Part shown: positions 1 to 22,056 of the stretch, in pieces
Layout: each line of letters opens with the position of its first letter
Numbering within the stretch: the stretch's first letter is position 1
Source of the DNA: Sphagnum magellanicum
Taxonomy: Eukaryota > Streptophyta > Sphagnopsida > Sphagnales > Sphagnaceae
Reading direction: 5' to 3'
NCBI GenBank assembly: GCA_021904315.1
Contig: CM038924.1
Span: 13,070,026 to 13,134,025 of the forward strand
DNA: 64,000 nucleotides
Position numbers and translations under genes: made by a program
Notes under the pieces: model-generated
The model's input: the letters and a program-made list of their open reading frames with translations, nothing else
Databases searched by the model: none
What the model was told of the DNA's origin: nothing

Positions 1-188
1 GCAAAGCATCAGACAGAGCCACAGAGAGAGAGGACAGGGGATTTCAGAAAGAAACTGCAGCAGATTTCGTCCTCTCACAGACAGAGCTAGCAGTAGCAGC
101 AGCAATCTGTGATGCTGCAAAGCAGCTCCCAAGAGATTTCAATAGTTGAGAAGAACTCTAGAACTTCATCATCATCAGCATCATCCTC
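1..188 (+). promoter_or_regulatory. 5' leader of the ATL gene
   Basis: This stretch is purine-rich and CAG/AGC-rich and runs directly into the ATG at 189. It has GAGAGAGAGG near the start and CATCATCATCAGCATCATC just before the start codon. It is probably transcribed 5' UTR. No convincing TATA box is visible, and the promoter may lie outside the window. Confidence 0.45.
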
Positions 189-1679
189 ATGGCCTCTGTG
201 AGGAATTACCCCCCACCATTTGTGTCAATGGGAAACGCATTCTTCAGCAGCAGCTACCAAGAAGGCGACATGATGAGCAACAACAACAACAACCACCATA
301 GTTCGCAGCAGCAGCAGGAGGAATCCAGCCAGCTCGTGAAGAGCAAGATCATGGTGGTGGCAGTTGCAGTGCTGTTTGCAGCAGTGGTGTTCATCATTTG
401 CCTGCACATCTACGCCAAATGGTTCTGGCGTCACCAGGGCGCCGTTCTGGGCATGACCAGGTCAAGCTCCTCCTGGAGAAGAAGAAGAAGACAAGTAGCT
501 TCTCGTCCTCCTCAGAGCATCATTCTCGACCCCCTCGCTGCTGCTGATCACGACCCACAGCAGCAACATCTCTTCCTTCTCCACAGCATGGGTCTGGACA
601 AGACGGTGGTGGAATCCCTGCCCACTTTCGTTTACAAGAAAGCGGTTTTCCCGCAAGAGATTGCAGACATGTCTGAGTCTTTGTCTCAGCTGCAACAGCA
701 GGAGCTGGAGTGTGCTGTTTGTCTAGAGGAGTTCGAGGAGAATGAGATGGTTCGCACTCTCCCCAAGTGTGCTCACTGTTATCATGTGGAGTGCATCGAC
801 ATGTGGCTGTACTCTCATTCCAATTGCCCTCTCTGTCGAGCCTCAGCTCGACCCAATGGCCCAGCAGGAGCAGCCCAGAAACAACGACACTCATCTGCTG
901 CGCTTGGTGCCGCTGTAGAAGACGAAGCAGCTGCTGATCCAGAGAATGCTGCGGTTGCTGCAACACCACAAGGTGATCAGCAGCTTCAAAGCAGCTCAAG
1001 AACCCTGGATCTCAACTTGGGTCTTTCTGGATCATCTCTTGCTAGAGCTTCTTCAACGACTCCTCATGAAGACGAAACCCTTGCAGCTGCTGCTGCTGTT
1101 ACTGCTGCAGGAGGAGGATCCGCACCCACAACAACGGATCCATCAGCAACAACAACAGGGACTGCCAAGTCTTTGCGGAACATCATTCCGTCCAATGTGT
1201 TGCTGCTCTTCTGGGGTAGTGGCATGGTGGATTCGACCACCTCAATGCAGCGGGAAGGTGCAAGCCAGCAGCAATTAGGAGGAGGAGCAGGAGTTGTTGC
1301 AGTTGCTGCAACTGCAAGCGGCAGAAGATCATTATCATCAGCTGCTGCTGCAGCAACAACCACTATCGGAGTGCAAGCTCCTTTCCATGTAGTCATAGAC
1401 ATACCTAGAAGAGGAGGAGGTGGTGGTGGTGGCTCCTCCTCAAGTGCAGAGCCTCCTCTTCTTCCTCCTTCAAGCTCTCCTTTCTCCTCTTCGTCCACTC
1501 CCAAGTCCGCCATGGCTCGCTTCCCCAGCTTGAGACGCCTTCTCAGCCGAGGCAAGACTGTTGCAGCACCACCACCATCACCACCAAGCTCCTCTTCTTC
1601 CTCCCCACCTTCTTCTGATTTCCCTACAGATTTAGAGCAAGCTCCAGCTCCATCTCCATCACCAACTGCACAGTCCTAA
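189..1679 (+). CDS. ATL-family RING-H2 finger E3 ubiquitin ligase, intronless
   Basis: The 496-residue protein has the ATL layout. A low-complexity N-terminus is followed by one transmembrane helix at about residues 53-75, then a basic stretch (WRRRRR, 96-101), the GLD signature ([14 protein letters not shown], about 134-147) and a RING-H2 finger at 175-216. The zinc ligands are Cys175, Cys178, Cys194, His196, His199, Cys202, Cys213 and Cys216. Trp206 is the conserved residue that contacts E2 enzymes in this family. ATL proteins are membrane-anchored E3 ligases, often acting in stress or hormone responses; the substrate here is unknown. The 280-residue tail is rich in Ala, Ser, Gln and Pro, but keeps ordered-looking islands ([23 protein letters not shown]). 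Lack of introns is typical of ATL genes. The start was chosen because it is the first ATG and precedes the helix by a plausible distance. Tail length is above the family norm. Confidence 0.93.
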
Positions 1680-8285: not shown

Positions 8286-9439
8286 ATTTATTGCCATAGC
8301 TATTCTTCTTCTTATCAACTTTGGTAGTTATTTGGGCTTCTCCAAAAAGAATTGTTGCAATTCTTGTGCTTTGGTAGTAATGTTTCTATTTCGGTGCATT
8401 CCAATTATGCATGATTCTATGAACATCTCTTCTCCTTCCACATGTTTTTTATTTGGTTTAATTCCTTTTGTTTATGTGTTAAGTTCTTTTTTGTGTGCGT
8501 TTTTTGAAACATTATAATGGCTAAGGTTTTGGGAAGGGCCAGAAGGGGAAAGGTGTGACCAATAAAAAGGTGGCCACCAAGCCAGCTCAAGGCCAACCTA
8601 ACATCGTTGAAGCTAGGTTTGCATGGTTGGAGGCCCTAGTCACAAGCATGGTGACCCAGGTGAAATCTACTACATTTGGGCCAAGGAAGGCCAAGGATCG
8701 GGAATATGGCTAATCATATGGGTTAGATGCGGATCAAAGATTCTTTTGTGGAGCTGGTTTTTCAAGATTAGTGGCACCAAATGAAACGATGCCATATATG
8801 TCAAGAGATCATGAGTCATGGGCAACAAATGATGGAAACCATGTTATGGTTCCAAATCCTAATGAAATGATTTCCACAATTGCACCAATGACAAGAGCTA
8901 ATGTGTGGTTACCAGAACCATGAGGTGTTGATGAAAGATTGGAAACTCAATGTGGTGAAACTTAACGCCAAATGTGGTTCCCGTAATCATTTGTGTTGAT
9001 AAACACCATTCCCAATCCCATGGGGGCACCAACTTTTGGTGGAGTGTCAAGGAAGGTGCTTAATTATATTCCTAGGTCCAAGGCACCCACAAGTTTGATG
9101 GGGGAGGCCAAAGTAGTGTGTTAGGCACCACTATTTTCTTCTAAAACATTGGCCATTTCAAATATTCAACCAATGGCCGTGTTTTATTTGGTGGCCACCT
9201 TATGGGAGAATGGTGGAACATCAAATGTGATGGTTAAGTTGAAGGACATTTTTGTGCCTGCTGTAGTTCCCCATCCAATTTTTGAGGCCAACTACATGAA
9301 GGTGTCCAAGGTTTAACCTGAATTTTCACATGCGGTTATGGCCAAACTTCATGACCTTCTAACATGGTTAGCCATTGATCGAGCCAGTGTTATTCTTGGG
9401 GTTGTGGTTGTGCACAATGAAGAAGGAGTGTTTCAGTTG

Positions 9440-9790
9440 AGGGGGGCATTGACAAGATGGTATTGACCCTTTAGGGTGTTGTTGGATTCTAGTGGCAAAG
9501 TTCTTGTTAATGGTCTTGGATTCACTGATGCTGAATTTGACCCATACCCATATCACATTTTGACATCCATGGGTGGGTTAAAAAAACATGAAAATTAACC
9601 AAGTAGGAGATTATGATCTAGGTTAATCCCACCAAGCCAACAAATTACATTATTGTGTGGGCTTGAGTAGTGGTCATGCATGTTACATCCTATGATGTGT
9701 TGGTTGGAGGTGTAGTGTTGTACCCCCTAGGGGTTACCATTCATTTTTGGAAAGAAACTACATACTATTGTCTAGGCTAACAAACATGAG
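9440..9790 (+). pseudogene. Retropepsin-like segment of the Ty3 fossil
   Basis: The frame around 9479-9510 gives LLDSSGKVLVNGLGF, a plausible remnant of the D-S/T-G active-site turn. It is followed by DPYPYHILTSMGG and, at about 9622-9790, VNPTKPTNYIIVWA, a stop, then SYDVLVGGVVLYPLGVTIHF. This order (active-site Asp, then a hydrophobic 'DVLVGG' strand and a 'PLGVTIHF' strand) is what I expect of gypsy-type aspartic proteases. Confidence 0.5.
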
Positions 9791-10170
9791 TTAGTCAGAA
9801 GGCTTCATTGCCAGTGAGATTCATTAGGGGGCAAGCAAGAAAATCTAATAAATCAACTATGTTGGCTAGATTTGCAAGCCTCCCACATGGATTTGAATTA
9901 TTGGAAGGTAATGTCCATGATCAAAATGCACTTCCAAATGGTGAATTGGCGATGTTAGGGCCATAGGGGATGTTAATCATTTTAGTTTTTCCATTGGATC
10001 CTAGGCTACCATGGGGCACATTGATTGAACTCCAAGCATTGGCAAGTCATTATATTCATCAAGCTTGGCACATTTTGCCGTCACCAAACCTATAGTCACC
10101 ATTAAACCTTAATAATGGACCTCTAGGTTTAAGCCCATTGGATACTAGGGTTATCCAATGGGATATTCCC

Positions 10171-10460
10171 GAAGATAAAATATGCCTACTTGAACTATTT
10201 GGAGGCATTAGTTTTGGATTAGTTGTAGTTCTATAATTCGGCATCCTAGTTCAGAGATACCATTATGTGGAAAATGATCCACATAATGTGTTGCATGTCA
10301 TGATGTTACAACAAAGGTATCCCCATTTGTTACCAACATTGGCCATACAAGGTTATCATTGTTCCTTACCAAATAACATCACCTTGTTGGGGGCACCAAA
10401 TTTTGTAAGGATTGGGCCAATTGATTTGGTCATTTTTTGATGGTTGTGCTAAGGGATTCT
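10171..10460 (+). pseudogene. C5-cytosine-methyltransferase-like segment of the Ty3 fossil (DNMT3/DRM-like)
   Basis: The frame gives CLLELFGGISFGLVVVL, then a stop and GILVQRYHYVENDP. This resembles motif I of DNMT3-type enzymes (LSLFDGIATGL followed by a G-I-x-V-x-x-Y strand and an acidic residue). About 60 residues later comes GPIDLVI, then a stop and WLC, then a stop. This is where motif IV (GPFDLVIGGSPC) falls in DNMT3. The catalytic Cys codon is still TGC, but the Pro before it is now Leu and the codon after it is a stop. Downstream motifs VI-X are not visible. It cannot make an active enzyme. Confidence 0.6.
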
Positions 10461-10574
10461 AGGCCAATTTTTTTGGCTAGATTCAAGATTGGGACTTATA
10501 ACTACCATGGCTAGATATGGGGTATAGTTTAAGTTGGCAAGTTTTTCTTTCGTTCTTTTTACCATACTTCTTAT

Positions 10575-10925
10575 TTTTTGGCTATGAACCTGAGTTACTA
10601 GCCTCAATTCAATGAGATGTGATGGCAGTAATCAACATGGATGATCCTAATGTGTGGATTTAGACATGTGAGTAGCAAGCCACCTTGTTTTGATGTATTA
10701 TGCCCATGGTTACGGAAAATCTGGCAATTGCCCAACACTGGGATACATTGCATTATGCCACTACACATGGAGGTGGTTATCAACCTTAGATTTGGAGGTT
10801 TGAGCGAGGAGATTATGTTTACCTACAATAGACAACACCAACTACTTTGGATGTGACTACAAGATGTGTTATTTACGTATGTGGAAGGTTTTACCTTTTA
10901 AAGTGTTATTGTTGGAGGGTGGAGA
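10575..10925 (+). pseudogene. Integrase C-terminal segment of the Ty3 fossil
   Basis: In one frame the text gives ENLAIAQHWDTLHYA (around 10718-10762), then FERGDYVYLQ (10799-10828) and TTPTTLDVTTR. This fits the end of gypsy integrases, where a helix is followed by the 'GDxVxL' strand of the SH3-like domain. Several in-frame stops interrupt it. The catalytic core is absent. Confidence 0.5.
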
Positions 10926-11034
10926 TGGTTAAACATGGAAGGACCATGTATGCATTTATTGTGCACCATGTCATCTTCCCAATATGGATGGCCATATGGA
11001 CCCATCTTTAGCCATGGTTCCAGCTAGCTTATGA

Positions 11035-11169
11035 TGTATGTTGTGTGGGCAAGCTTCAAGAGCCACCACTATGTTGATTTGTGATAAGTGTTCCTAAGGT
11101 TGGCATATGGGATGTCTCATGCCACCAATGGAAGCAGTGTTAGTTAGCAAATGGTTTTGCCCTTGGTGC
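11035..11169 (+). pseudogene. PHD finger segment of the Ty3 fossil
   Basis: The frame gives CMLC, then CDKC, then after one stop codon GWHMGCLMPPMEAV, then WFCPWC. All eight C4HC3 zinc ligands and the conserved Trp before the last pair remain, although a TAA interrupts the loop after CDKCS. PHD fingers bind histone H3 tails. In a chromodomain-like position after the integrase it could have guided insertion, which is inference. Confidence 0.65.
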
Positions 11170-11299
11170 ACCCAATAGATGTAGGTTTTTAGGGTCACAT
11201 AGTAGAACTAATTTAAGGTTTTCTTCCATGGTAATTTACATTTGGTTGGGGATTTGAAGGATAGCTATGGCCTACCTTAATGTTTTTGTCTTGGTTCCT

Positions 11300-14200
11300 T
11301 TGTTTCATGTTTTGGATTTTGGCTTAGACTTATCCTTTCATCATTTGTCTTAGTAATTTTTGTGCTTGTGACAACATCCTAAACCATGTATGGTTTTTAA
11401 AATTGAAACTTGACTAAAATTAACCTTTTAATTTTTTAAAGAAATAAGCATGGAACATTATTCCTAGTTTTGTTTGTGTAGAGTTAAAATAAAGACAATT
11501 TTAATTTAATATTTTGAATTGAAATTAAACATTTTTCATAAAAAGAAAAAAAATCACCCAACATTAGTATGGATGAATGTTGATTAACTATTACTTTTTT
11601 TCATGATTAGCTCAGTAAATTTATTTTTTATTTTTTATTTTTTGTTCACACATGGTATCATTTTGAAAAACATTCAATTTTTTTTGAAGGCATGTTATGC
11701 ATAAAGGTTAGTTTTCAAATACCCATTATATTGTTCAAATATGGTAGATTTTAGGGTTTTTTGTTTGTTTGTTTTGGTGCTTTTATTTTTAGGAATAAGG
11801 TTGTTAGTTGATCAGTTAAATCCATGTGAAAAATGTCCATGGTTTTAAATCACCCACCCCACTTCCTAAAAGAATTAACACCAAAAATGAGTCATTCAAT
11901 GTGATTTCTTGAGGTTAACATGAATGATTTTTAAAAAAATTGACTTTTGGTTACATACATTTTATGCTCCATTTCAATTGTTGTTATATATATTCAATGT
12001 TTCCAATGGCTTGGATTTTGATTTCAACTTTCAATAATTATAACATTAATCATGTATTGGAAATGTCTAATAATGTATTATGAGATTGATGATAGAAAAT
12101 TCAAGTTTGGGTGAATGTATGGTTGAATGGCTCATTTTTAAAAAAACAAGTCCACACAAAATCCCTTCTACAATATTAGATTAGTAATTTAATTTGGTAT
12201 AATTGAATAAATCCATGTATCAAATATAATAATGTCCATATTAATAGGAGCCCAAGTAAAGATTCTAAGAATATGCACTTGTGATTTTTTTTTAAAATTA
12301 AGAAAAAAAAACTTTAGTGAGTAATGAAAATATGATTTAAATCTAACCATTCAAAAAGCCTTAGTTAGAATTTGACAACAACTTTTGAGGGAAGAATTTC
12401 ACATAATTTTTAAATTTTTTTTGCTATATTACATACTAAGGTACAATATGGAAGTTGGAATGAAAATGATTATGAATGTTTCAATTTTTTACCATTCTAG
12501 TCAATTAACCTATCCATAATTTTGGACTTCAAAAGTCCACTATTAAAATGTGCATGTATTTTTTCAAAAAAGTTTTACATGTACGTTTTCATAATCGAGT
12601 ATTTAATTTCAAACCAATTTCCAATTGATTTTCTTAAGATTATATGTTTTGCAAAACCAAAAAATGTCATAGATATGTTCATTAATGCATACACCCCTTT
12701 ACATGTGTAAATACAATTGTTATGTTTTCACTATAGATGATGTTATTGAAAGTCGATGCCATTAAATATGCTTGTGCATTTTTAAGGTATTTCATCATGT
12801 TGTTGAAGAGGAATTGGGAAACCTTTGAAAGAGATAATTTGACAAGATTTTAGCCAAGAAATGGGGAAGTAATTAAAGAAATCTCTTAAATAATTGGTTG
12901 GGAAGTGCTAGGAAATGGGAGGGTTAGGATTTTTGGCACTACAAAATTTACTACACAATTTTGACAAGTAAATTAACATTTCAAGAATAATTTGCTTGAT
13001 TGGGAAGTTGTTCATCATGTTACAACATGATTTGAATTTGTGAAATGAATGAGTAGTGTGTGTCTTTTAGAGGTTAAAATATTCAATCATTTGTCTTTGG
13101 CACATGTTCATGAAGCAAACAATTTTTGAAGAAAATTTTATATATGATGATTTGTGCCATATTGGCAAGAACTATTTGTGATGGGATAATATTCCAAAGA
13201 AACAAAACTTCTAGGGTATTTCAAACCCAAAAATAATGTGAAAATATTGCTCTAAATAATCTTTGCAAGCTTCAAAACAAGTACCTTATAATGAAAGTGT
13301 ATTTTTAGTTATGTTCATGTAGATATTAAATACCAAAAATTACCATGTAGGCACATAGGTGTTTGCATGAACAAATTGCATGCTAACCAAGACACAAATG
13401 ATGGTGTAGACATTTGTTATGAGAATTTGAAGGATAAATTGAAAAGAATGAATGCCAAATTGAAAAAAATATTGGGTTGGTTGATTTTTAACTTGTTGAT
13501 AATGTACTCACTCATTATTATTATGTACAAGTTGTAGAAATAAGGAAGACAAAGGGAAGAATGATAATTCTTAAGGGCATGGTGAATGACACAACATATT
13601 CTAGTTTCACACATATGTGTTAAAAGCACATAATTGCAAAGGTCCAATTTGTATTGCACAATGTTGGCACATTACATTGTTAAGCTAGATCTTCACCTTG
13701 CACAAACATAACATTGGTTCAAAATAATCTTCATTTAACATGTGAAGAATGGTTTCACATTAACATTGTTTGCCCTAACAATGATAAAATGACCATTGGA
13801 GCATGGTTGATTTAAAGATGAAAGAGGAGAGTATGATTGCAAAATATTTAAAACAATTCCCAACACCATCAACTTACACATAGATATACATAATGCACAT
13901 TCATAGTCATAGTTACTATCGGTGGTGACTCACATTAAAGTGTACAACATGATAAGTTGAATTGTTGGCTCCAAGATCAATAAAGCAATGGAGAGATGGA
14001 AAATATAGTAAAAGGATATGGGAAAGAGGGGGAGGAAAGAGAGATTAAAGTTAAAGGATGATTTTGATCAATATTCTAGAGATGAGTAAAGACACATATC
14101 TAATTTGGCATGAAGTTGTTGCATTTGAGGTCTTCAAATTGTAAGTGTGAGAAGTGAATATTCTTGCCGAAGTTTGGTGTCCAAAGGCATTTGATGCAAC

Positions 14201-15120
14201 CATTCCACCACCTATTGATTTCAATTCATGTGACTATTTAAGGGCATTTCAATTCCAAATATTTTCATTTTGGTTGAAAACTAATTCACATAAGTTTGTA
14301 TGTTATATTTTATTTCATCAATGGTTACATTTTTGCTAAATTTTTTGCTTTGAAAGGACTTGTATCTTAATAGTCACAATTGTGTAGGTATGACATTCAT
14401 GAGGTTGTGGCCAATGTTGTTTGGGGCGGGGGGTGGGGATGGGGGAAGATTTTTCATTGTGGTGGAAAGAAAAAGCTAATGTGAATTATCAAAAGGTTTT
14501 TTTTGGAAAAAAAATTATGAAAGTCATCATATTTTGAGAAAAAAATTCACATGTCACCATGTTTAGACAATGAGTTCATATAGGTTGCCAAAATTAGGTA
14601 AGGTTCCAAAAAACATTCTACTTTATTGTTTGACCTCGATCCAAATTTGGCTCATTCCCCTTATCAATGATTAATACTCCACCTACCTGACAAAATTGAA
14701 AAAAAAAGCCCTTGTTGTGACCCCGTTTAGGGTCAAAAGAAAACATTATCATCAATTGTGTTTATGTTGGATATGAAAGATTTTTTTTTTTTTTTTTTTC
14801 CTTGGAAATATTTGTGTTTGTTGGATATTGTAGCCTAGGGTTAGTTTCCACATTGACAAAACAAATAATAATTATTTTTCTCAAAAAATGAATTTGATTA
14901 ATTTTTTTGAAATTAAATAATTTTCCATCATCTATTATAATATTGTGATATGAGTAGTGAAATTATTCAGAATGTAGCCTATGATAATTATAATGATTTT
15001 CAACATGTCAACTTCACATTTTCACAAAATTTCATTTCACTATTTTGAGGATTATTTAATGACAAAACTGACCTTAGGGTAAGGTACACAATCTTTAATA
15101 TTCATTCTAAGGGCTTTTTA
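11300..15120. other. AT-rich intergenic DNA
   Basis: No gene and no recognisable element is visible. The region contains poly-A and poly-T runs, a (T)20-type tract near 14780-14800 and GGGGCGGGGGGTGGGG near 14424. Longer weakly open stretches have no family motif. Most of it is probably very old transposon debris. Confidence 0.4.
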
Positions 15121-15330
15121 AAAAAATTGTGATGTAACCATGTTGGTGACCATCCACAAGAGCGATTAGCCAAACTTGGCTATAGGTTAGAGAGAAAAGT
15201 AGAAAATTTTAAGAATCCTACTATATTTTAGTGACTTGTTGGAACCTATTATTGTCTTAAATATGGCAATTTCAGAATTTTGTGACTTTGAAGTCACTCT
15301 AATGGCTTTGGTTCAATTTTTTTCACAAAT
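15120..15330 (-). repeat. Dispersed palindrome-core repeat, copy B (inverted)
   Basis: TAGCCAAACTTGGCTA at 15167-15182 is one base off the perfect palindrome. The sequence after it (TATAGG, GAAAAGTAGAAA, AAGAATCC, TTGGAACCT) follows copy F at 63.06 kb closely for about 90 bp in the same orientation. Confidence 0.7.
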
Positions 15331-17990
15331 CTCCTTGGAATGAGTTGTATTGGATTTTTTTTTGTCACCTAAGCAAATTAAAATGCTGATTGGTTCCCTT
15401 TAATTGGCCATCAATAGTGATGCCCATGTTGATGAGTTCAAGTTGTACAATTAGGAAAATATCCTCTAAGTAAAATATTCTCTAAGTAATGTTTTTGTAT
15501 GGTATGGAAGACCCTAATAAAACACTTGCAAATAGAAATAATCCTATTACCAGAAATATGCAAAATATTTCATTGTGCAACATTTTATTTAATTCACATG
15601 GCAAGAACCACAATATGTTCGTCATGAGGAGATGACAAATCTTGGGAATAGTGGTTGAACTAGTGTGAAACAAATGAAGTTTCATTCATAGTCTGGGGAT
15701 ACATGGAACCTTTTCATTGGTACCTCATGAGCAATGCCTGGTGGACCAACCCTAAATGATGATGAGTAGGGTTTAGGGTCTAAAAGTTTTGTTTCTCTCC
15801 TTTGCAAAACCCACAAATGTTGCAAAGTCTTTCTCTTCAACCAACAACCAACACTTTAGTTAGACTCCCTATTGTTGTTTGTTGTTTCTTTTTCCCCCCC
15901 CAAAGCCCAAAACCCTAGAGAAAAGTTTGGGCATGGAACCCTTTCCCTCCCTCCCATAAAGGAATGCATTGAAGTAATGGGCAAGTAAGTAGCCTTGCTT
16001 CTCGAGCTCAATGATATTACAGGATATTTCAAAGTGCCGTTCAACACATGAATGGCAAGACCAATCATTCGGTGTAAGGTAAAGCTTGAGTGTAAAGACT
16101 TGCCCCGATTTTAAGTTTTTCTTGTGATACCCAGTGGGTATCATCATGGGTATCACAAGAAAAAAGGAGAAATGGGGGGGGGAGGGGATTTTGATGAATG
16201 AATGCTTACTCTGGAGGTTTCAAAAAATGAAATGCTCATTGAGAAAAGAGAGAGAGAAAAAGGAGTTATGTAAAAAAAATGGTTGTAAATAACCCATCAA
16301 GGCAATGAGAACAACCTCCGTAGTACATACCCCCCCTAGGGAGTAGTAGTACATTGGCAACTTTCACACATGTTTGTCGAATAATTAATTAATTAAATTT
16401 GAAATTTCCATTTCAACAAAGAGAATATTCTAAAAAAGATCCAATGCTTTCTTCCTTCACAAATTTTGGTTATTTGAAGAAATTTTTTTTTGGGGTGAAA
16501 AAAAATTCAACATTTCTGTAAATAAAATAAAATAAAATAACATAAACATAATATAATTAGTGTCAAAGCTGCCAAGGTAGTAAGTAGTAAGTAGGGTTGC
16601 CTAGTCTCCGGATAAAGGTCAACACAAACTGTACACTAGGATTTGGTTGGATAAAGGGAAAGTGAATGGTGATCTCATCAATGTTGTAGTTTTCTTTTTC
16701 CTCAAGATCAGCAACCTGGGAAATCGAAAAAAGGAAGATTTTACCTTGGAAACATGCACTCTCTTTTTAGCATCCCTATTATGGTGGTCATTGGATATGG
16801 CTAACCCATCTCTAGAACCATGGTAGATATTATTGAGTGAAGAAGAATGAGGCCAACTTACTTACTTACTTACCTACAATGGGTTTGCTCACCAAACACT
16901 CTATGCTTAAATCCTTTATGGATCTTTGTGTTTTATATCCCCTCCTTCCTTTCCATGCATATGACAACAACAACAACTGACATACATAGTTGCACATTTT
17001 GCCCCTGGGGCTGAGGTGAGTTTTTCATCGGCATGATCAGTTGTTCCTTTTGTCCCTCCACTAGCCTAAGTTATGGAAGAAAGGGGGATGATCAATTGAC
17101 TTTGGAGGCGGAGTTTTGGCCAAACACTAGTAGCTAGCTGATTGCAATCCCCAAAGGACCGTCTCTTCTTATGATTGAACATTATACCACATGGGAGGAG
17201 GGGAGGAGTCATACCATGATGATGATGATTATTATAATTATTATTAGTTCCCCTATGGGGCTCCTCTTTCGAAGTTTTCAATTCTAGATAGACTAGTGGA
17301 TTGTTGGAAGGTATAGAGCAAACTCACACTCAAACTGACTTGTTGAGAGGAATGTTTTTGCATAAGGTAATTGACCCCGTACTCATTCCCCCTTTATTGA
17401 CATACAATTTTTTGTCTCTTTGAGTTTATGGGTGCACAATGAGATTCAAACTCTCTCTCACCTCACAATGAACCTATAATTCCCTCTTTTTTTTTGGTTG
17501 TTATTGGATTTTTTTGTGACATTTTTGAAGATTTGGTTCTAAAGCTATGGTCTCCTCCCCCCCCCCGCCTCTTCACTAGTCAATCTAATGGAAGTTCAAA
17601 AGCAATCAATCATTTGTTACTTGGTTACAATGTGTTGATTGAGAGAGCTTCAAGAAAACAAGGTGGGTGAACAAACAACACATGTGTAGTTCCACAATCT
17701 AGAGTGGGCCATTTAGGGGTCAAGAAAAATCATCCATTCAAAATTTGTCCAAAAGAGAATGTAAAACATCCCATGTCAAATATCCCATTTGCAAAGGTGC
17801 AAAGATGAATGAAATAAGCAATGAAGTGGCCCACAAGCATATGCATTTTCTAGCTAGCTCTAATAATCAGGACATGACACCATGAGCAATGTACCCACCC
17901 CTAGTAGATTGTTTCATTAATGCTATATTTACATCCATTTGAAGGATGTTCAATATCAATGAGTGGTGTAGAAATTAAACACAAATCACA
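15331..17990. other. Intergenic DNA
   Basis: No gene is visible. It contains TAGGGTTTAGGG at about 15766, homopolymer C and G runs, an (AAAAT)n microsatellite near 16521-16545 and a (TTAC)n tract near 16857-16873. The 15856-16156 minus-strand open stretches look like chance frames. Confidence 0.4.
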
Positions 17991-21189: not shown

Positions 21190-22056
21190 AGTCTCTTCCT
21201 TATGGGCAAAGGAAAAAAATATTAAGCATCATTTGATAATTTGGTTACTTTTTGGAACCTATTGTAAAAAATTGGTAATTTGGTAATTTTCTTTTTGAAA
21301 TTTGGAAAATTTGGGCCATTTTTTTTTCCATAAAAAAACCTTTGTAAAAGTTTCAAATCAGATTTTTCCAGCTAAAAATTTGATGAAAATTGTCCACCAA
21401 AAAAAAAACCCTTTTGATGTTATTTGACACCTGAAGTTATTTGACATGTTCTTGGGATTTTTGGGGAACAATGGGTTACATATCAGAATTGGTTCTTAGG
21501 TTGTTTGAGAACCATGATTACATATCATAACTGGTTATTTGTTGATTTTTTGATGACCAGGGTTATAATGCTTGGTTATGTTTTGCCATTTCTAATAACC
21601 ATCCAACACTGGTGCTTATGATGAATTTGATGAAACACTAATTTGAACCACATCTTGACTCTGAAAGGCAGCATAGGCTATCAAATCCAATTGTCAAATA
21701 TTGAGCCAAAAAAGGTGTTAACTGGAACACCTCTAGTGATCAATGTTTCATTCATCAACAAATTTTGTCATTTTTCCAACAAGAAAATTGGGAAAATTTG
21801 GAATTTGTTAATAAAAAAATTCTAAATTCTACTAATTTTTTCTAATTTTTTGGGAAAATTTGGAAATTTTCAATGTCAAAAAAATATTGAAAAAAAATAA
21901 AATCAGATCTAGATCTTAATTGGGTTTCTTTTGTTGGTAATTTGATGGGTCACTTTTGTATGCTCGACATTTTAGGGTGGGAGAAGGTTAGACTAGAAAT
22001 GAAAGGAATGAATGAATGAAGAACCTCCAAAGCAACTCATTCCATTCCATTCCATT

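Follow-up and report, generated by a model that had tools for sequence, protein, structure and literature searches.

The stretch at 8517-11290 can with good probability be regarded as an old, internally deleted copy of a Ty3/gypsy-type retroelement that exists in several subfamilies in a moss, a degree of confidence that applies to the best explanation taken as a whole. It lies in a window of 64,000 nucleotides from Sphagnum magellanicum (contig CM038924.1, 13,070,026-13,134,025), whose numbering is used for all positions below. In better-kept relatives from the same genome, the predicted polyprotein is shown to have the order gag (zinc knuckle)-protease-DNMT3-like methyltransferase-RT-RNase H-DDE integrase-PHD and, judging from these relatives, both the methyltransferase and the PHD finger are parts of the element. 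The anatomy of the original prediction is thus realized in a single open frame of one relative (L009), a Ty3/gypsy-type pol that has a DNMT3-like methyltransferase inside and a PHD finger at its C-terminus. Its description as a "vascular-plant version" has to be abandoned, as the host is a moss.

The window copy was compared with these relatives by tblastn, which recovered the retropepsin, methyltransferase, integrase-end and PHD segments in the predicted order on one strand, the + strand. A decayed aspartyl protease is represented by an N-terminal part with an altered active-site region (9401..9577, + strand; 29% identity to the L018 protease piece) and by a C-terminal part (9667..9786, + strand; 48% identity to L018, and 50% to L009 over a shorter stretch); both parts combined reach E = 2e-12 with the L018 piece. 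They are followed by the N-terminal half of a DNMT3-like C5 methyltransferase, from motif I to the motif IV region (10129..10515, + strand; E = 2e-19 with the L009 piece), of which positions 10135-10455 are 47% identical to L018 (95 bits, against a shuffle maximum of 25.4). The C-terminal part of a DDE integrase, including GDYVYL, comes next (10475..10828, + strand; 53% identity to L018, 133 bits), and then the PHD finger region, with which the polyprotein ends (10927..11175, + strand; 61% identity to L018, E = 3e-29). The C4HC3 core of this region (~11035-11169) keeps 8/8 ligands and is readable in one frame. The protease, methyltransferase, integrase end and PHD scores are 51, 95, 133 and 100 bits, respectively, while the best score in 200 shuffles of 8517-11290 was at most 27 bits.

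The C-terminal half of the methyltransferase is deleted in this copy. The jump from the methyltransferase to the integrase end falls somewhere around 10455-10515, and, relative to L009, the internal deletion removes ~1,060 residues (from residue ~1084 to 2147), which means that the rest of the methyltransferase, the RT, the RNase H and the integrase core have been lost. The remaining parts are still collinear on the + strand, in a copy broken by stops and frame shifts: no ORF longer than 74 aa is found on either strand of 8517-11290, except for one that ends at 8517. The region upstream of the protease (8517..9400, + strand) is a possible but unconfirmed decayed gag: tblastn with the L018 gag finds nothing in it at E ≤ 1, and three pieces within 8525-9316 reach no Pfam family above cut-off. 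The predicted span of 8517..11290 consequently stands from ~9400 onward and lacks support for 8517-9400. The A and B repeats that should terminate the window copy were looked for and not found, and an Rfam scan of the window gave no matches. The profile search suggested with the original prediction was silent for the window copy itself, none of the four pieces scanned passing the Pfam cut-offs, and successful for the relatives, which give DNA_methylase, PHD, protease and integrase. Elsewhere in the window, positions 162-1679 (+ strand) contain a 505-aa ORF whose RING-H2 finger (Pfam zf-RING_2, E = 5e-13) makes it a probable host E3 ligase gene.

The relatives come from an assembly of 31 contigs that total 438,994,042 bases, in which PF00145, searched in six frames, has 124 matches. 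Some of these are host genes: L020 is a DNMT1/MET1-like gene and L021 and L023 are host loci closest to DRM2. L009 is one stop-free frame of 2379 aa in which Pfam scans of six pieces detect, in order, an aspartyl protease (2e-7), DNA_methylase (2.3e-9), RVT_1 (1.9e-28), RNase H (5.4e-39), integrase H2C2 (6.2e-16), rve (5.3e-12) and PHD (PF00628, 8.7e-12), with a gag zinc knuckle below cut-off. L018, in four frames separated by stops, has a zinc knuckle, DNA_methylase, RVT_1, RNase H, integrase and PHD, and its protease was detected by tblastn; the scanned pieces of L010, L013 and L017 show concordant domains. The pol order protease-RT-RNase H-integrase is found in L009, in L018 and in the pieces of L010, L013 and L017, and the best PDB match of the integrase is Ty3 (E = 1.1e-23). 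Pol order, integrase match and a DDE integration with a short duplication (see below) all point to an element of the Ty3/gypsy type. No chromodomain is listed in the Pfam scans of L009, L018 and the pieces of L010, L013 and L017, and no tyrosine recombinase is listed in the Pfam scans either.

The better-kept copies form two subfamilies, alpha (L009-L016) and beta (L017-L019), which are ~41-42% identical in the methyltransferase, 50% in the RT, 59% in the integrase end and 38% in the PHD. Searches with the beta integrase-PHD (the best 150 of 1758 candidates being scored) and with the beta methyltransferase (the best 117 of 1108) gave at least 150 and at least 118 matches, respectively; the moss genome therefore holds at least 118 matches to the methyltransferase of this element. 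Among the 118 methyltransferase matches listed, 74 have an integrase-PHD 1.8-5.9 kb downstream on the same strand, and within 7 kb no integrase-PHD lies on the wrong strand or at the wrong side of any of them. Conversely, a methyltransferase lies upstream of 89 of the 150 integrase-PHD matches listed, when the PF00145 and beta methyltransferase lists are pooled. Many copies are broken, and 44/118 methyltransferase and 61/150 integrase-PHD matches are partnerless among those listed. The window copy alone, with its stops and frame shifts and without any Pfam match, could suggest a chance resemblance, or fragments of separate host genes joined by decay. Yet the contrast between 51-133 bits and the ≤27 bits of the 200 shuffles, the presence of all the domains in one open frame in L009 and the 74/118 pairings listed, with 0 in the wrong direction, leave this reading with practically no likelihood. 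The relatives carry both parts within the element, not in separate host genes or unrelated elements.

The place of the window copy within this family was studied in a tree of 26 integrase-PHD stretches (20 hand-picked from the 150, the window, two beta and three alpha). L069, L070, L077, L078, L079, L082 and L084 fall together with it, with nucleotide identities of 81-84% and some forks open, and a second old group of nine members stands beside this one. The ratio of transitions to transversions is 4.5 and 5.0 to 1 in the two old groups. Three young alpha sequences have 5.7 on 40 changes, so the transition excess is not special to old copies. The observed/expected ratios of the window copy, 0.15 for CpG and 0.29 for CHG, are below the 0.26-0.38 and 0.79-1.22 of four young copies. 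The neighboring positions 11291-16000 are lower than the window copy itself (CpG 0.10, CHG 0.14, GC ~0.3) and, from this composition, look like old, long-methylated repeat DNA.

The methyltransferase of the element appears to be DNMT3-like, since DNMT3 is its closest relative among solved structures when the beta L018 domain is used as a query: the best PDB match of this domain (METHYLTRANSFERASE) is DNMT3A (E = 2.8e-10), and its motifs are unpermuted. In NCBIfam the single match, to a dcm superfamily, stayed below the cut-off, and a scan of IMG/VR with the methyltransferase alignment gave one partial match (L025, 29% identity). Eight aligned copies from alpha and beta show no variation in the catalytic Cys, Glu-Asn or the AHR.R..WWTN stretch, and almost none in motif I, where L010 alone differs at two places. 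The Pro-Cys of motif IV is kept in 3/3 beta copies and replaced by Glu-Cys in the five aligned alpha copies; because Glu stands there for Pro, the activity of the alpha methyltransferase is uncertain. The same alpha subfamily combines this Glu-Cys with a low dN/dS. Its mean pairwise dN/dS is 0.165 for the methyltransferase (8 copies, 2 with a stop), 0.111 for the PHD (8 copies), 0.241 for the RT (8 copies, 1 with a stop), 0.275 for the protease (7 copies, 1 with a stop) and 0.415 for the integrase end (6 copies). In beta, where three copies provide few changes, the values are 0.53 for the methyltransferase, 0.89 for the PHD, 0.31 for the RT and 0.05 for the integrase end. The dS of the alpha PHD stretch is 0.19, three to five times that of the neighboring domains (0.035-0.059), perhaps as a result of recombination between lineages.

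These data bear on whether both domains could be functionless passengers, retained merely because they ride in the polyprotein. The replacement of Pro in motif IV of 5/5 aligned alpha copies would agree with such passengers, as would the high dN/dS of beta, few as the changes are. Nevertheless, in alpha the dN/dS of the methyltransferase and PHD is below that of the RT and protease, the catalytic Cys and the other invariant residues have persisted (motif I almost so) despite ~41% identity between alpha and beta, and the PHD ligand pattern is still detectable in 6/9 mostly decayed stretches tried. Passengers thus seem unlikely. The substitution patterns of the better-sampled alpha subfamily rather show purifying selection on the methyltransferase and PHD and so support a function, to which the beta figures bring no support.

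The PHD finger closes the polyprotein directly behind the integrase C-terminus, which in chromoviruses is the site of the chromodomain. Its PDB relatives include the fingers of CHD4, DPF3, KMT2C/D and PHF21A, several of which bind histone H3 tails. Given this position and this kinship, the tethering of integration is the simplest reading: the PHD would tether the integration complex to histone H3 tails, a ligand guessed from its relatives, and would thereby select the target chromatin. The methyltransferase, for its part, may methylate the new DNA of the element itself and so make it resemble ordinary silent chromatin. It is plausible, from the domains encoded, that the element can write and read chromatin marks, as the original prediction had it. 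A methylation writer and a histone reader are here joined in one mobile polyprotein, which makes self-methylation and chromatin-guided insertion testable in moss.

The termini were studied in 31 copies, corresponding to L009-L019 and 20 end-pairs (L026-L065). The original prediction proposed to look in intact copies for LTRs, RT and the domain order in one open frame; the last two were found in L009, whereas the copies examined do not appear to carry conventional LTRs at both ends. Their repeats are either split or absent: 17/31 copies have a long form, A1-internal-B1-GC-A2-B2 (some of them seen from the 3' side only), and 13/31 a unit form, A-internal-B, with no repeat after B. Neither form was found in the L050/L051 end-pair (1/31). 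Most copies end in TGTC...GACA. Exact 4-bp target duplications flank 17 of the 19 scorable copies (10/10 long and 7/9 unit), counting L028/L029 as duplicated despite altered last bases; 12/31 copies were not scorable, and the duplication fails in L026/L027 and L044/L045. These flanking sequences show that the element integrates with 4-bp target duplications. A short 78% match between window positions 21466-21520 and the DNA past the 3' end of the L015 copy is probably an unrelated dispersed repeat.

The sequences next to the repeats suggest how the element may be copied. A G run directly precedes B1. The 12 bases that directly follow A1 in alpha can form a duplex of 12 pairs (one of them G-U) with a stretch of A located at the predicted RNA start, its first base 32 nt past a TATA box, and no conventional tRNA primer site was seen by eye after A1; in the shuffle control, 35/2000 shuffles reach 12 pairs somewhere in the A repeat. 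Self-priming is weak in beta, whose best run is 9 pairs. From the G run and this complementarity, the element would replicate by self-primed reverse transcription and B-GC-A would be its reverse-transcribed LTR, and insertion would occur at the GACA-GC-TGTC junction inside this LTR. The cDNA would be closed into circles and the DDE integrase would cut the palindrome GACA-GC-TGTC within the repeat of the circular DNA before insertion. One-repeat circles would then give rise to the repeat-less A-internal-B form and two-repeat circles to the A-internal-B-GC-A-B form. The complete scenario, a land-plant element that writes DNA methylation, reads histone tails and integrates from circles, with the ends of its reverse-transcribed LTR not being those inserted, is conceivable and rather doubtful.

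Alternatively, the repeats could be encoded in the template, as in DIRS or Ngaro elements, and the repeat-less copies could come from later recombination between B1 and B2, not from two kinds of circles. The chances of this explanation may be put a little short of even. A DIRS-like layout has been described for KnitGypsy-Dnmt3 (PMC5890265), B1/B2 recombination would leave an identical target duplication, and 12 of the 15 A2|B2 joints that are readable among the 17 long copies are flush (L018 judged by eye). Yet later B1/B2 recombination would tend to make the unit form older, and the 13/31 unit copies are not visibly so: the median nearest-neighbor identity is 97.8% for both unit (n = 11) and long (n = 13) forms (p = 0.91, a weak test). 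The non-flush joints also deserve attention. That of L019 includes ~60 bases of post-A1 sequence, as an end-joined two-repeat circle would leave behind; that of L059 has 5-6 post-A1 bases, which small later changes could explain equally, and that of L065 is 2 bases short. Moreover, the presence of a DDE integrase and target duplications, and Pfam scans in which no tyrosine recombinase is listed, speak against template-encoded repeats of this kind. The termini point to a possible use of circles by a Ty3-type integrase, which would be an unusual integration route; if it holds, integration from circles could also account for the DIRS-like repeats of the algal KnitGypsy-Dnmt3.

Several known systems resemble parts of this element. 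Like chromoviruses, it has a chromatin-binding module fused to the integrase C-terminus, although this module is a PHD and no chromodomain is listed. Tf1-type LTR elements have a self-priming site beside the 5' repeat that is complementary to the RNA 5' end, and the alpha subfamily has such a complementarity, known here from sequence alone. DIRS and Ngaro elements have split direct repeats (A1-internal-B1-A2-B2), a tyrosine recombinase and no target duplication; the moss element shares their repeat layout but has a DDE integrase and 4-bp target duplications. The LINEs of the Jockey superfamily are PHD-carrying retroelements too, but their PHD is in ORF1 and not fused to an integrase. Among retroelements with cytosine methyltransferases, those of the dinoflagellate Symbiodinium form distinct classes that, according to the authors, acquired their DNMTs independently (PMC5890265), and retrotransposon DNMTs can methylate CGs de novo (PMC5890265). 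Streptophytes and dinoflagellates are also mentioned as having DNMT3s in Copia and DIRS elements, in passages that name no moss element (PMC12344493), and a passage of a 2019 paper considers land plants such as tracheophytes to be free of methylase transposons (PMC6338049). The titles and abstract beginnings of the literature matches listed contain no moss Ty3/gypsy element carrying a DNMT or PHD. The closest published element found, compared by description only, is KnitGypsy-Dnmt3 from the alga Klebsormidium nitens (de Mendoza et al. 2018, PMC5890265), with a Dnmt3 inside the Pol frame, a Ka/Ks <0.2 and repeats described as "the same as that of a DIRS retrotransposon". By this description, both elements have a Gypsy-type pol, an unrearranged Dnmt3 in the Pol frame, purifying selection and DIRS-like repeats. 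The moss element differs in that it ends in a PHD, a term with 0 occurrences in the main text of PMC5890265 (its figure lying outside this count), as well as in its moss host, its several subfamilies of differing age, and the anatomy of its ends reported above, with target duplications and two forms of insertion.
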